64,000 nt of DNA. It comes from Sphingomonas palustris (lineage in GTDB: Bacteria; Pseudomonadota; Alphaproteobacteria; Sphingomonadales; Sphingomonadaceae). Every line of letters starts with the position of its first letter. Within the stretch, counting starts at the first letter, position 1. Shown here piece after piece: positions 14,197 to 51,356 of this stretch. The DNA lies in contig JAMFSI010000031.1 of the NCBI GenBank assembly GCA_026225215.1, positions 1 through 64,000 of the forward strand, written 5' to 3'. A model generated the notes under the pieces. It saw nothing but the letters and a program-made list of their open reading frames with translations. It was not told where the DNA came from and made no database searches. Both the position numbers and the translations under genes were made by a program.

Positions 14197-14288
14197 CCGT
14201 CCGTGCTGAGCTTGTCGAAGGACTGTCCCTCTTTTCTTGGGCTTACCCGAAGAATAAGGCAGTGCTTCGACAAGCTCAGCACGGACGG
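14197..14288. repeat. Family A inverted repeat (GAGCTTGTCGAAG type), copy 1
   Basis: 29-nt arms 14197-14225 and 14260-14288 match at 28/29 positions as inverted repeats. Confidence 0.92.
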
Positions 14289-41251: not shown

Positions 41252-41342
41252 CCGTCCGTCCTGAGCTTGTCGAAGGACTGCCTTTTCTTTTAATCGTTTG
41301 CTAAGAAGAAGGACAGTGCTTCGACAAGCTCAGCACGGACGG
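41252..41342. repeat. Family A inverted repeat, copy 2
   Basis: Arms 41252-41280 and 41314-41342, 27/29 complementary; near-identical to the copy at 14197-14288. Confidence 0.92.
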
Positions 41343-41369: not shown

Positions 41370-42281
41370 TTAATTTCGTTTGCGCCGTTGGGTTCTCGTC
41401 TTCGACGACACAGCCGGCGGATTGCGCAAAGCCACGAAGCTCGGCAGATCATCGACCAGCCCGGTCATGCCATCGAACCGCGTCCCCATCGCGCTATCCA
41501 GACGCACGATCCGGTCGCTGGCGCTGGGATGGGTCGCGTACATCAGCGCAAAGGCGCCATCGGTGGGCGCGGCGCTGAGCGTTTGCAGCACCCCGACCAG
41601 GCCATAAGGCGAATAGCCCGAGCGCGTCGCGATCACCACGCCCATGCGGTCCGCTTCATATTCGTCTTCCTTGTCGAGACCGCGAATAAACAGCTCCCGG
41701 CCGTTGTTGATCAGTTTGCTGGTCAGCTGACCGGAGAGGCCCCCCTGATTGCTGGCGAAGGATTGGCCGATGTCCCCCAGCACCGAGTTGCCCAGGCTGT
41801 GTTGCAAGGCCTTCAAATGATGCTTGCGCACGACATGCGAAATCTCATGCGCCAGGACCCCGGCCAATTCGGATTCATTGCGCATACGATCGAACAGACC
41901 CTGGGTGATCAACACGTAGCCGCCGGGGGTCGAAAAGGCGTTGACATCGCTGCTGTCGATCACGCCGAATTTCCAGGGCAGGTCCGGTCGTTCACAATGC
42001 AGCGAAAGCCACCGCCCTACCCGATTGACATAATGCTGCTCGGCCGGGTTGTTGACCAGCGGCGCCGCGCCCAGAATCAATCCCGCGAGATTCCCGCCAA
42101 TCTCGATCTCTTCCGGCTCACCAATCGAGCGCAGGGCGTCATGCGCGTTCTTCACGGTCTTGAACTTGCCCATCATGCCGTCCAAGCCGGGGAACTGCGC
42201 ATTCGCGGGTGTGGTTCCGATCGCCCCGAACGCGATGACGGCGAGGGCGATGGTGAAACGGAGGCGAGCGAGGTGGGCCAT
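41370..42281 (-). CDS. M48-family Zn metalloprotease (periplasmic/lipoprotein BepA/LoiP-like)
   Basis: LAGVLAHEISHVVRKHHLKAL (HExxH), DEYEADRMGV third ligand; signal peptide at MAHLARLRFTIALAVIAFGAIG. Confidence 0.92.
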   Translation of the reverse strand: MAHLARLRFTIALAVIAFGAIGTTPANAQFPGLDGMMGKFKTVKNAHDALRSIGEPEEIEIGGNLAGLILGAAPLVNNPAEQHYVNRVGRWLSLHCERPDLPWKFGVIDSSDVNAFSTPGGYVLITQGLFDRMRNESELAGVLAHEISHVVRKHHLKALQHSLGNSVLGDIGQSFASNQGGLSGQLTSKLINNGRELFIRGLDKEDEYEADRMGVVIATRSGYSPYGLVGVLQTLSAAPTDGAFALMYATHPSASDRIVRLDSAMGTRFDGMTGLVDDLPSFVALRNPPAVSSKTRTQRRKRN

Positions 42282-42283
42282 GA

Positions 42284-42799
42284 TCAGTTCTTCCCTCCCT
42301 TCGTCAGATAGTCGGCCTGCGTCTCCTTCAATCCGGACCTTTTCGCATTCGCGGTCGCTTCTGCCGGATCGACCGCGAGGGTGGAGAGTTTGGCAAGTTC
42401 GGCGGTATTGACCGTCGCATTGCGCAGATTTTCTTCGCCCAGACCCTTGACCCCGGTGGTCACGGTCTTGCCGGAACTGCCGGTCCTTAGCAGCGAAGCC
42501 GAAGTCAACAGATTGCCGGAATGCGCGGCGCTGCCAGCAGTATCGGCCCCGGCCAGGCGAACGTTGAGCATGCGGATCCAGCCGGTCTTGCCCGCAGCGG
42601 TCACTTCCATCCACCCGCCCTTGCGATCGATGACGGTGACGGGTTCATTGGCGGTCACGGTGGTTGCCGAGGCGGCATCGATAAATGGCTGGACCTTGAT
42701 ATCACCGGCGCGAAGGACAACGCCTCGCTCGGCAGCACTGGCGGCGGTCGTGGAGACAGTAACCGAAATTAAAAAAGCAAAGGTGCAGGTTCGCAACAT
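42284..42799 (-). CDS. SH3-like domain periplasmic protein
   Basis: Signal peptide MLRTCTFAFLISVTVSTTAASAA; VVLRAGDIKVQPFIDAASATTVTANEPVTVIDRKGGWMEVTAAGKTGWIRMLNVRL. Confidence 0.8.
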   Translation of the reverse strand: MLRTCTFAFLISVTVSTTAASAAERGVVLRAGDIKVQPFIDAASATTVTANEPVTVIDRKGGWMEVTAAGKTGWIRMLNVRLAGADTAGSAAHSGNLLTSASLLRTGSSGKTVTTGVKGLGEENLRNATVNTAELAKLSTLAVDPAEATANAKRSGLKETQADYLTKGGKN

Positions 42800-42800
42800 T

Positions 42801-44666
42801 TCAGTGCACTCCACCATTTTCCGAAGAATTAGCATTTTCTTGAGCCGGTTCATAGAGGTGAACCAATGTTTCACGGCCCTTTACCTGATGCATCCCGCGA
42901 TCTTCCCAAATGCGGGTACCGCCGATGGCATCGCGGGTCGCTTCCGACACCAGAATCCGGGCAATGCCTTTGGTAAGTCCTTCGATACGGCTGGCCAGAT
43001 TCACGGTGTCGCCGATGACGGTATAATCGAGGCGGTCATTCGAGCCGATGAAGCCCACCACGGCATTGCCGGTGTGGATGCCGATACCGATGTCGAGGCC
43101 TGCGCCCAACTCGCCCAGATCGTTGCGCAGACCTTCCAGCACGGCGGACATTTCGATGGCCGCCGCTACCGCCCGCTCCGCATGATCCGGATGGGCGGTT
43201 GGGGCCCCCCAGAAGGCCATGATGCAATCGCCGATAAACTTGTCGAGCGTGCCGCCGTGGCGAAAGATGACTTCGACTTGCCGGGAGAAATAGAGGTTGA
43301 GCAAAGCAACGACATCTTCCGGGCGCGCCTCCTCGGATAGCGCCGTGAAGCCGCGGATGTCCGAAAACAGGATCGTCAGTTCGCGGGTTTCGGCGTTCGC
43401 CTTATAGTCGATCTCGCCGCGCTCGATCAGGTCGGTCACGACGCGCGGATCGAGGAAGCGTTTGAACATCACCGAAGTACGCAAGCGCTGGGTTCGCTCC
43501 TGCAAATAGGCCGCGCCCGTGCAGCATAGGTAATTGGCCCAGCCAAAAGCCAGGGCGCCAAATACCGGCCAGAACGTCCCTTGTAGCAGCGCGATCCAGG
43601 CTGTCACCACGATCATAACGGTCACGCCGAGCATCGCATAACCGACCCTTGCGGCACTTACGCCGAGGGCGAAGCTACCGGCCGCAAATCCGCACAACAC
43701 CAAGGCGAGCAAGGCCATCGGCGCACGCGGTTCTTCGCGCAACCAATCGCCACGGTCGAGATTATCGATAGCCGTCGCCAGGATTTCGACCCCCGGATAA
43801 GTGCTCCCCAGCGGGGTGAGCCGCAAATCCTGCAATCCGGGCGCCGATGTTCCGATTACGACGATCTTGCCGCGAAATTCGTGAGGGTCGCGCAAGGGGT
43901 GCTCGCGTAGCCCATCGAGGTAGATGTCGGCATAGGAGACATGCCGCCAATGGCTGCGCCAGTTCAGCAGGATGGTCTGCTGCCGTGGCAGGCTGCGCCC
44001 CACCGCAGCCATGATGCGCGCCGGCAGCGATGCGAAGCGCCATCCCGCCCGGTCCAGATAAAGCTGATGATGGCGCCCGACCCGATCGCCATCGACCTGG
44101 AAATTGATCAATCCGCCGCGCATCGCCTCGGGATGGCGCAGCATGACCAGCGGCAACATCAATGGTACCCGCGCGTCTCGGGGCGGATCGGTCAGCGGCG
44201 TGGCGCCGATGGCGGCGGGCATGTCGTGAATCCAGGCGCCCTGCCCATCGGCGTTCAGCGTCATGGCGAGCAGGACATTCGGATAGCGCGCCACGGCATC
44301 GGCAAAAGCACTGTCCTGTTCGGGGCGATAGACATCCAGTTCATTGAACAACACATCAAAGGCGATGGCGCGCGGCTGCTGGCGCGCGATTTGATCGATC
44401 AATTCGCCATGGACCGATCGCGGCCAGGGCCAACTGCCCGCCTGATCGTTCATCGCTTCGAGCGAGCGTTGATCGATGTCGACGATAACGACGCGGTCGG
44501 ATTGCGGGCGCTGGGCCGCGTGCATGGTCAGCAGGATGTCGCCGGCGCGCTGATCGATAATCCTTGCCGCGCCCAACCATGCATAGTCCGCCAGCACCAG
44601 AACAGAAAAAAGCGCCGCTATCGCGAACCATTTGTTCACCAGCAGCAAGCGCGCTTGCCCGATCAT
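42801..44666 (-). CDS. CHASE2-domain class III adenylate/guanylate cyclase
   Basis: CHASE2 N-term ...[49 protein letters not shown]; cyclase [52 protein letters not shown]. Confidence 0.95.
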
Positions 44667-44910: not shown

Positions 44911-45108
44911 TCAAAACATTGCCCGCATTCCATCCACGAGAAAAGTCAGCAGAGCATCCTGATGCAGATCTGCAGGAAGTCGATCGAGCATTTCAATCAA
45001 TTGCCTGGCCAAAGTCTCGTCGGGGTCAATCGCCAACATGTCATGGCATAAAGCTCGAAGCTCGGATGCCGAGCGCGATGGGCGCTGGCCGTATTCGAGT
45101 ACCTTCAT
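44911..45108 (-). CDS. Small hypothetical protein
   Basis: MKVLEYGQRPSRSASELRALCHDMLAIDPDETLARQLIEMLDRLPADLHQDALLTFLVDGMRAMF; protein-like composition, no overlapping better gene. Confidence 0.4.
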   Translation of the reverse strand: MKVLEYGQRPSRSASELRALCHDMLAIDPDETLARQLIEMLDRLPADLHQDALLTFLVDGMRAMF

Positions 45109-45230
45109 TTCGCTGATGATGAGCAGAAGATCGGAATAACAGGACGTTACGATCACGAGGCATACATTTGCTGTCAGCAAAACCAGATTTATAACATGCG
45201 TTTCGTTTAGGTACGGTATTTCGTAAATCT

Positions 45231-51274: not shown

Positions 51275-51356
51275 TGCTAAGCTTGTCGAAGCACTGCATT
51301 TCTAATTAACTTATTAAAAATAAAGTAAATTCTTTGACAAGCTCAGGACAAACGGG
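51275..51356. repeat. Family A inverted repeat, degenerate copy 3
   Basis: tgctaagcttgtcgaagcactg ... tctttgacaagctcaggacaaacggg. Confidence 0.8.

Follow-up and report, generated by a model that had tools for sequence, protein, structure and literature searches.

A gene triad of CHASE2 cyclase, SH3 protein and M48 protease as a candidate envelope signalling module

Gene products of the locus

The window, the whole stretch of DNA analysed here (64,000 nucleotides of Sphingomonas palustris contig JAMFSI010000031.1), includes three consecutive genes on the minus strand. These genes, together with one motif in the second of them, are located as follows:

42801..44666, minus strand: CHASE2 sensor with a predicted class IIIb adenylyl cyclase domain (ATG 44666, stop 42801; 621 aa)
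42284..42799, minus strand: exported SH3_3 protein with a conserved C-terminal tail (ATG 42799, stop 42284; 171 aa)
42440..42457, minus strand: codons of the TGVKGL motif, residues 115-120 of the SH3 protein, placed by alignment where that protein is best conserved
41370..42281, minus strand: exported single-domain M48 zinc metalloprotease with HEISH, DEYEAD and HPx4R motifs (ATG 42281, stop 41370; 303 aa)

The cyclase and SH3 genes are separated by one base (42800) and the SH3 and M48 genes by two bases (42283-42282). The initial annotation had described three minus-strand genes with gaps of 1-2 nt, and its coordinates and gaps proved exact. The tight gaps suggest translational coupling. Started at an upstream GTG, the M48 frame reads as one of 414 aa (41370-42614); the ATG at 42281 agrees with the signal peptide and with the relatives of the protein. 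A promoter and terminator scan gave nothing usefully above shuffled controls. Upstream of the cyclase, an 89-aa frame (44911-45180, minus strand) without a Pfam or NCBIfam match may be a small gene. Paired inverted CTTCGACAAGCTCAG repeats, which are REP/REPIN-like, occur at window positions 41261-41333, 14206-14279 and 51277-51346 (six matches versus zero expected), and the pair at 41261-41333 sits just downstream of the M48 gene. No FecR-like protein was found beside the triad (by eye, with the adjoining genes examined using Pfam), and the locus is therefore not classed as a FecR-CHASE2 module.

The cyclase matches the Pfam models CHASE2 (PF05226; 6.6e-51) and Guanylate_cyc (5.9e-27), both above the curated cut-offs. 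The protein is composed of a transmembrane helix, a periplasmic CHASE2 region (approximately residues 32-314), three transmembrane helices and a cyclase domain (approximately residues 426-606). Its AlphaFold model (pLDDT 92), which like all of our predicted structures is of a single chain, places helices at residues 2-31, 315-333, 338-361 and 369-402; with the topology assumed, the model has the architecture of a CHASE2 receptor, the CHASE2 domain lying outside with one transmembrane helix before it and three after it. Fold matches of the cyclase domain or the whole model in the PDB are P. aeruginosa CyaB (3r5g), Cya2 and S. platensis CyaC (1wc1). Residues D436, K476, D480, N556 and R560 are invariant in the 45 triad cyclases aligned, and position T549 is occupied by threonine in 44 of these and by serine in one. 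In the CyaC register, which we take to hold for this family, D436 and D480 are the metal aspartates, K476 and T549 the adenine pair, and N556 and R560 the transition-state pair. Judged by these residues, the window protein is a class IIIb adenylyl cyclase. Given that lysine and threonine at the base-reading positions favor ATP, cAMP is the expected product; of the cAMP/cGMP signalling put forward at first, the cAMP part is retained and the cGMP part is not. A Pfam search found no cNMP-binding domain in the receptor cyclase. The same genome encodes two cNMP-binding proteins that are candidate cAMP receptors, as well as two other class III cyclases, so the cAMP output would be shared.

The protease (Pfam: Peptidase_M48, 4.6e-31) has a signal peptide that we judge by eye to be cleaved at ANA|QFPG. 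The zinc-site residues H145, E146, H149 and E207 and residues H251 and R257 of the HPx4R plug are invariant in all 45 aligned proteins, and the window sequence contains the HExxH motif, the third-ligand glutamate and the plug residues H251, P252 and R257 by which M48 peptidases are recognized (PMC7950410). H251 aligns with the His-switch residue H246 of BepA (PMC7950410). Based on the invariant zinc site and plug and on this alignment, the enzyme looks intact and of a kind that is normally held in check; the earlier statement that the catalytic residues are intact is borne out for the cyclase and the protease alike. The nearest solved structures are 3c37 and BepA (6ait/6sar). However, the protein is not assigned to BepA (104.7 bits against a curated cut-off of 570; 303 aa with no C-terminal TPR domain) or to LoiP (58.1 bits against a curated cut-off of 365; no lipobox cysteine at the cleavage site), although some of its relatives do carry a cysteine at the cleavage site. 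We rejected 3c37 as a triad member, given that the Geobacter homolog tested (L167) has no neighboring SH3 or cyclase gene.

The SH3 protein (Pfam: SH3_3, 3e-7) has a signal peptide judged by eye to end at ASA|AERG. In its AlphaFold model an SH3 fold (residues 24-82, pLDDT >95) is followed by a low-confidence linker leading into TGVKGL (115-120) and by helices spanning 122-154. The best conserved stretch in clade A, one of the three triad-bearing cyclase clades discussed below, is residues 105-121, with a mean conservation of 0.70 compared with 0.54 for the SH3 domain. Across 46 sequences G119 is invariant and position 118 is always lysine or arginine. The tail can be described as a [KR]-G-[LF] motif followed by a helical mini-domain, and this tail family is unnamed in Pfam. 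A fold search with the protein returned SH3 domains only and no match to the tail; the Foldseek and sequence matches include cell-wall enzymes that carry bacterial SH3 domains.

Distribution and co-inheritance of the triad

The cyclase scan covered a collection of 84,980 species, from which the best 80 cyclase loci were taken. Among these, each of the 28 clade-A loci whose downstream DNA is long enough has the SH3 and M48 genes directly after the cyclase, and a further 19, more distant loci have SH3 and M48 genes as well, one of them (L053) more loosely, with other genes intervening. The hosts include Chitinibacter, Chitiniphilus, Undibacterium, Azonexus, Comamonas, Solimonas, Neptuniibacter and Pseudomonas, and the more distant triads extend to Spirochaetota, Nitrospirota, Myxococcota, Thermodesulfobacteriota and Krumholzibacteriota (MAGs). 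Many of the loci compared are from MAGs. With the Pseudomonadota sample described below included, we count approximately 60 distinct triads. The three triad-bearing cyclase clades (A, B and C) are mutually divergent and span Pseudomonadota and five other phyla. CHASE2 cyclases also occur on contigs binned as archaeal (L073, L079 and L086; Nanoarchaeota, Woesearchaeota and Thermoplasmatota), reflecting either transfer or misbinning.

The initial annotation would have been refuted by a lack of joint conservation of the three genes in relatives, and this is not what is seen: the set is kept in about 60 genomes of several phyla. Its accompanying suggestion that the neighborhood may be common in sphingomonads did not hold: SH3 homologs are present in two of 151 genomes of the family (the window genome and one other), and a close M48 ortholog in three of 59 other genomes of the genus, with one additional fragment at a contig end. 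Four sphingomonad relatives have the cyclase, SH3 and M48 genes side by side in unchanged order, between unrelated flanks. In two sphingomonads a second, different CHASE2 cyclase is encoded directly after the M48 gene (L017:8733-10970 and L023:9175-11412), in L017 near a FecR-like protein (by eye). The sphingomonad triads form one group among beta- and gammaproteobacterial triads in all three protein trees, and this placement suggests that the triad was acquired as a unit. The G+C content of the triad genes (60-62%) equals that of the window (62%), so by composition they are not recent foreign DNA.

Our phylogenetic analyses, which are quick trees with one support measure, indicate that the three genes have traveled together. 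When 83 CHASE2 cyclases are placed in one tree, four changes account for which of them are in triads, compared with a mean of 22 for shuffled labels. Clades A, B and C come out as separate groups in each of the three protein trees (cyclase, SH3 and M48), with two changes, the minimum. The tree distances of the three proteins are correlated (Spearman 0.86-0.90 overall and 0.64-0.70 within clade A; 0/999 permutations as high). Among 29 clade-A loci no unrelated neighbor recurs in more than eight, larger clusters being frames that overlap the triad genes. Given that approximately 60 other genomes keep the set while no unrelated flank recurs beyond eight of 29 loci, the triad is not a chance association, and the genetic coupling of the three genes is strongly supported by these comparisons. 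Gene order does vary while the set is kept: the cyclase leads in most loci and comes last in L081, L085 and L135. In L135 it is a member of a different clade that is mostly free of SH3-M48, and the association of CHASE2 cyclases with SH3-M48 therefore seems to have arisen more than once, in trees that cannot separate gains from losses.

The SH3-M48 pair with and without a cyclase

A profile of the SH3 protein, built from triads, gave 30 full-length matches in 29 of 399 Pseudomonadota genomes. The M48 gene is directly downstream in all 30 loci, the window locus included; this adjacency was not used to select the matches, although the profile itself derives from M48-linked proteins. A cyclase is encoded in front of the pair in 13 loci and behind it in one (L135), a CHASE2 protein lacking a cyclase domain is present in one (L140), and 15 have neither, proportions that are biased given that the profile was made from triads. 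By this gene arrangement, SH3 and M48 together are the indivisible core of the module. In one bacterial family, Mariprofundaceae to judge by the identity of L160 with L069, the cyclase-free SH3-M48 pair is located between genes identified by eye as dxs and tlyA. In L140 (3152-4867) approximately 200 residues that match no Pfam model take the place of the cyclase domain in the CHASE2 protein; such a neighbor of SH3-M48 is in keeping with a connection to the CHASE2 portion.

CHASE2 proteins are encoded in all 15 genomes with cyclase-free SH3-M48 but also in 228 of the 399 genomes overall, and the 13 placeable CHASE2 cyclases elsewhere in those 15 genomes are all outside clades A-C. The co-occurrence is thus weak evidence, and we reject the idea that cyclase-free SH3-M48 pairs act in trans on a triad-type cyclase. 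Together with the 15 loci that have no adjoining cyclase, the placement of these 13 proteins also argues that SH3-M48 must additionally have a function that does not involve a dedicated cyclase. Conversely, CHASE2 cyclases without SH3-M48 are common, one being encoded in the same genome as the window, which means that the cyclase fold is not dependent on SH3-M48. In that genome a CHASE2 cyclase follows a large CHAT-like protein (L021:2036-7242, C6) and a CHASE2 histidine kinase follows a LysM-FecR-like protein (L022:2951-6696, C174), both by eye.

The [KR]G[LM] motif and helical region are kept in all 15 SH3 proteins that lack an adjoining cyclase. This retention of the tail alongside M48 argues for a role as protease partner, and M48 is more likely than CHASE2 to be what the tail binds; on the same comparisons, the SH3 protein is probably first and foremost a partner of M48. 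The cell-wall sensing that had been ascribed to it is left without specific support; its distinctive part is the tail, which stays with M48 even where no cyclase adjoins.

Proposed signalling, alternatives and relation to known systems

In our judgment it is highly probable that the products of the three genes act in one pathway. We hypothesize that the pathway is an envelope signalling module in which the SH3 protein is a dedicated protease partner, the inner-membrane CHASE2 cyclase reads the protease unit and cAMP is the output; resting on gene conservation and analogy, this reading has about an even chance of being correct, and the direction from protease to cyclase is equally finely balanced. 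The SH3 protein would dock on M48 via the [KR]G[LF] motif and the helices of its tail and, by analogy with JspA/LppA, would direct or license the protease. The target of the protease unit would be a CHASE2-bound ligand in the periplasm, the SH3 protein itself or the CHASE2 domain, and cyclase output would be set by this action. Direct cleavage of CHASE2, or of an SH3 protein bound to it, is a version that we regard as possible though rather unlikely. Through cytoplasmic cAMP, CRP-type receptors would then be informed of how heavily loaded or how active envelope proteolysis is, a logic like that of JspA/LppA-ExoR-ExoS with a cyclase replacing the kinase.

The three genes could instead merely be transcribed together, SH3-M48 being a quality-control protease of the LoiP/BepA type and the CHASE2 cyclase sensing something else. 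This would account for the 15 of 30 SH3-M48 loci with no adjoining cyclase, such as those between dxs and tlyA, and for the similarity of the M48 domain to 3c37 and BepA; however, the association recurs in cyclase clades separate from one another and with the genes in more than one order, the trees match while the flanks differ, and the gaps suggest translational coupling, and we consider co-regulation alone unlikely. A signal might also run from inside to outside, with the cyclase domain or its cAMP shifting the state of CHASE2 and so holding or releasing the periplasmic SH3-M48 pair. LapD controls LapG through c-di-GMP (PMC4359373), a precedent for such an arrangement, and both the L140 CHASE2 protein without a cyclase and the leading position of the cyclase in most operons agree with it. 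The catalytic residues intact in all 45 aligned cyclases fit an output rather than a receptor, and the receptor has no cNMP-binding domain, which together make this direction improbable.

The SH3 protein itself may be the sensor, binding peptidoglycan or another envelope ligand and activating CHASE2, with M48 only removing it as a reset. Bacterial SH3 domains are able to bind wall peptides, and the matches to cell-wall enzymes are in keeping with such a role. The tail motif, however, is better conserved in clade A than the SH3 domain that would do the sensing and is kept where no cyclase adjoins, and we think this scheme very improbable.

The preferred reading, from protease unit to cyclase, resembles systems whose descriptions we take from the cited papers for E. 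coli and the rhizobia. In S. meliloti, JspA (M48) and the small lipoprotein LppA jointly reduce the level of ExoR, which inhibits the kinase ExoS from the periplasm, in the JspA/LppA-ExoR-ExoS-ChvI pathway (PMC10659215). There, as we propose here, a periplasmic regulator of a sensor in the inner membrane is adjusted by an M48 protease together with a small exported partner. In contrast, the genes are apart in that system and its sensor is a histidine kinase, whereas here a single cluster has an adenylyl cyclase output and its partner protein is of the SH3 type and bears a new tail. The window proteins are not JspA and LppA, given that JspA is an M48 and LysM lipoprotein while the window M48 lacks LysM, and that the SH3 protein is not a lipoprotein. 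The S. meliloti proteins CyaD1, CyaD2 and CyaK, with NsrA and Clr, likewise combine CHASE2 adenylyl/guanylyl cyclases, an upstream envelope protein and cAMP acting on a CRP-type regulator, but NsrA is an outer-membrane barrel and no M48 or SH3 partner is mentioned in the excerpt of that report (PMC13001267). The E. coli proteases BepA, LoiP and YcaL are periplasmic and have the zinc site, the HPx4R plug and the residues of the His-switch in common with the window M48, which differs in lacking the TPR domain of BepA and a lipobox and in being linked to an SH3 protein; the His-switch and edge-strand of BepA count as further precedents (PMC7950410, PMC8423444). In magnetotactic bacteria the exported protein MtxA is encoded beside a CHASE2 cyclase, but it is described as neither an SH3 protein nor a protease and its gene set is unrelated (PMC4439547). 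We noticed no SH3-M48 or SH3-CHASE2 fusion among the loci read and found no description of the triad in the open literature, although a description that we have not seen may exist.

Within that literature, the input of CHASE2 is known only for the plant-signal case of S. meliloti. The conserved SH3 and M48 set constitutes a defined and reconstitutable candidate input, a protease with an adaptor, and cultured hosts of the triad are available in Chitinibacter, Azonexus and Undibacterium. Independently of the cyclase, the SH3 tail family is a second lead, as a candidate adaptor class for M48 proteases. We tentatively suggest that the triad represents a widespread and undescribed kind of signalling, in which an M48 protease with an obligate SH3 adaptor plugs into CHASE2, with envelope proteolysis as the stimulus and cAMP as the report. 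If this is true, cAMP would join sigma factors and histidine kinases as an output of regulated envelope proteolysis.
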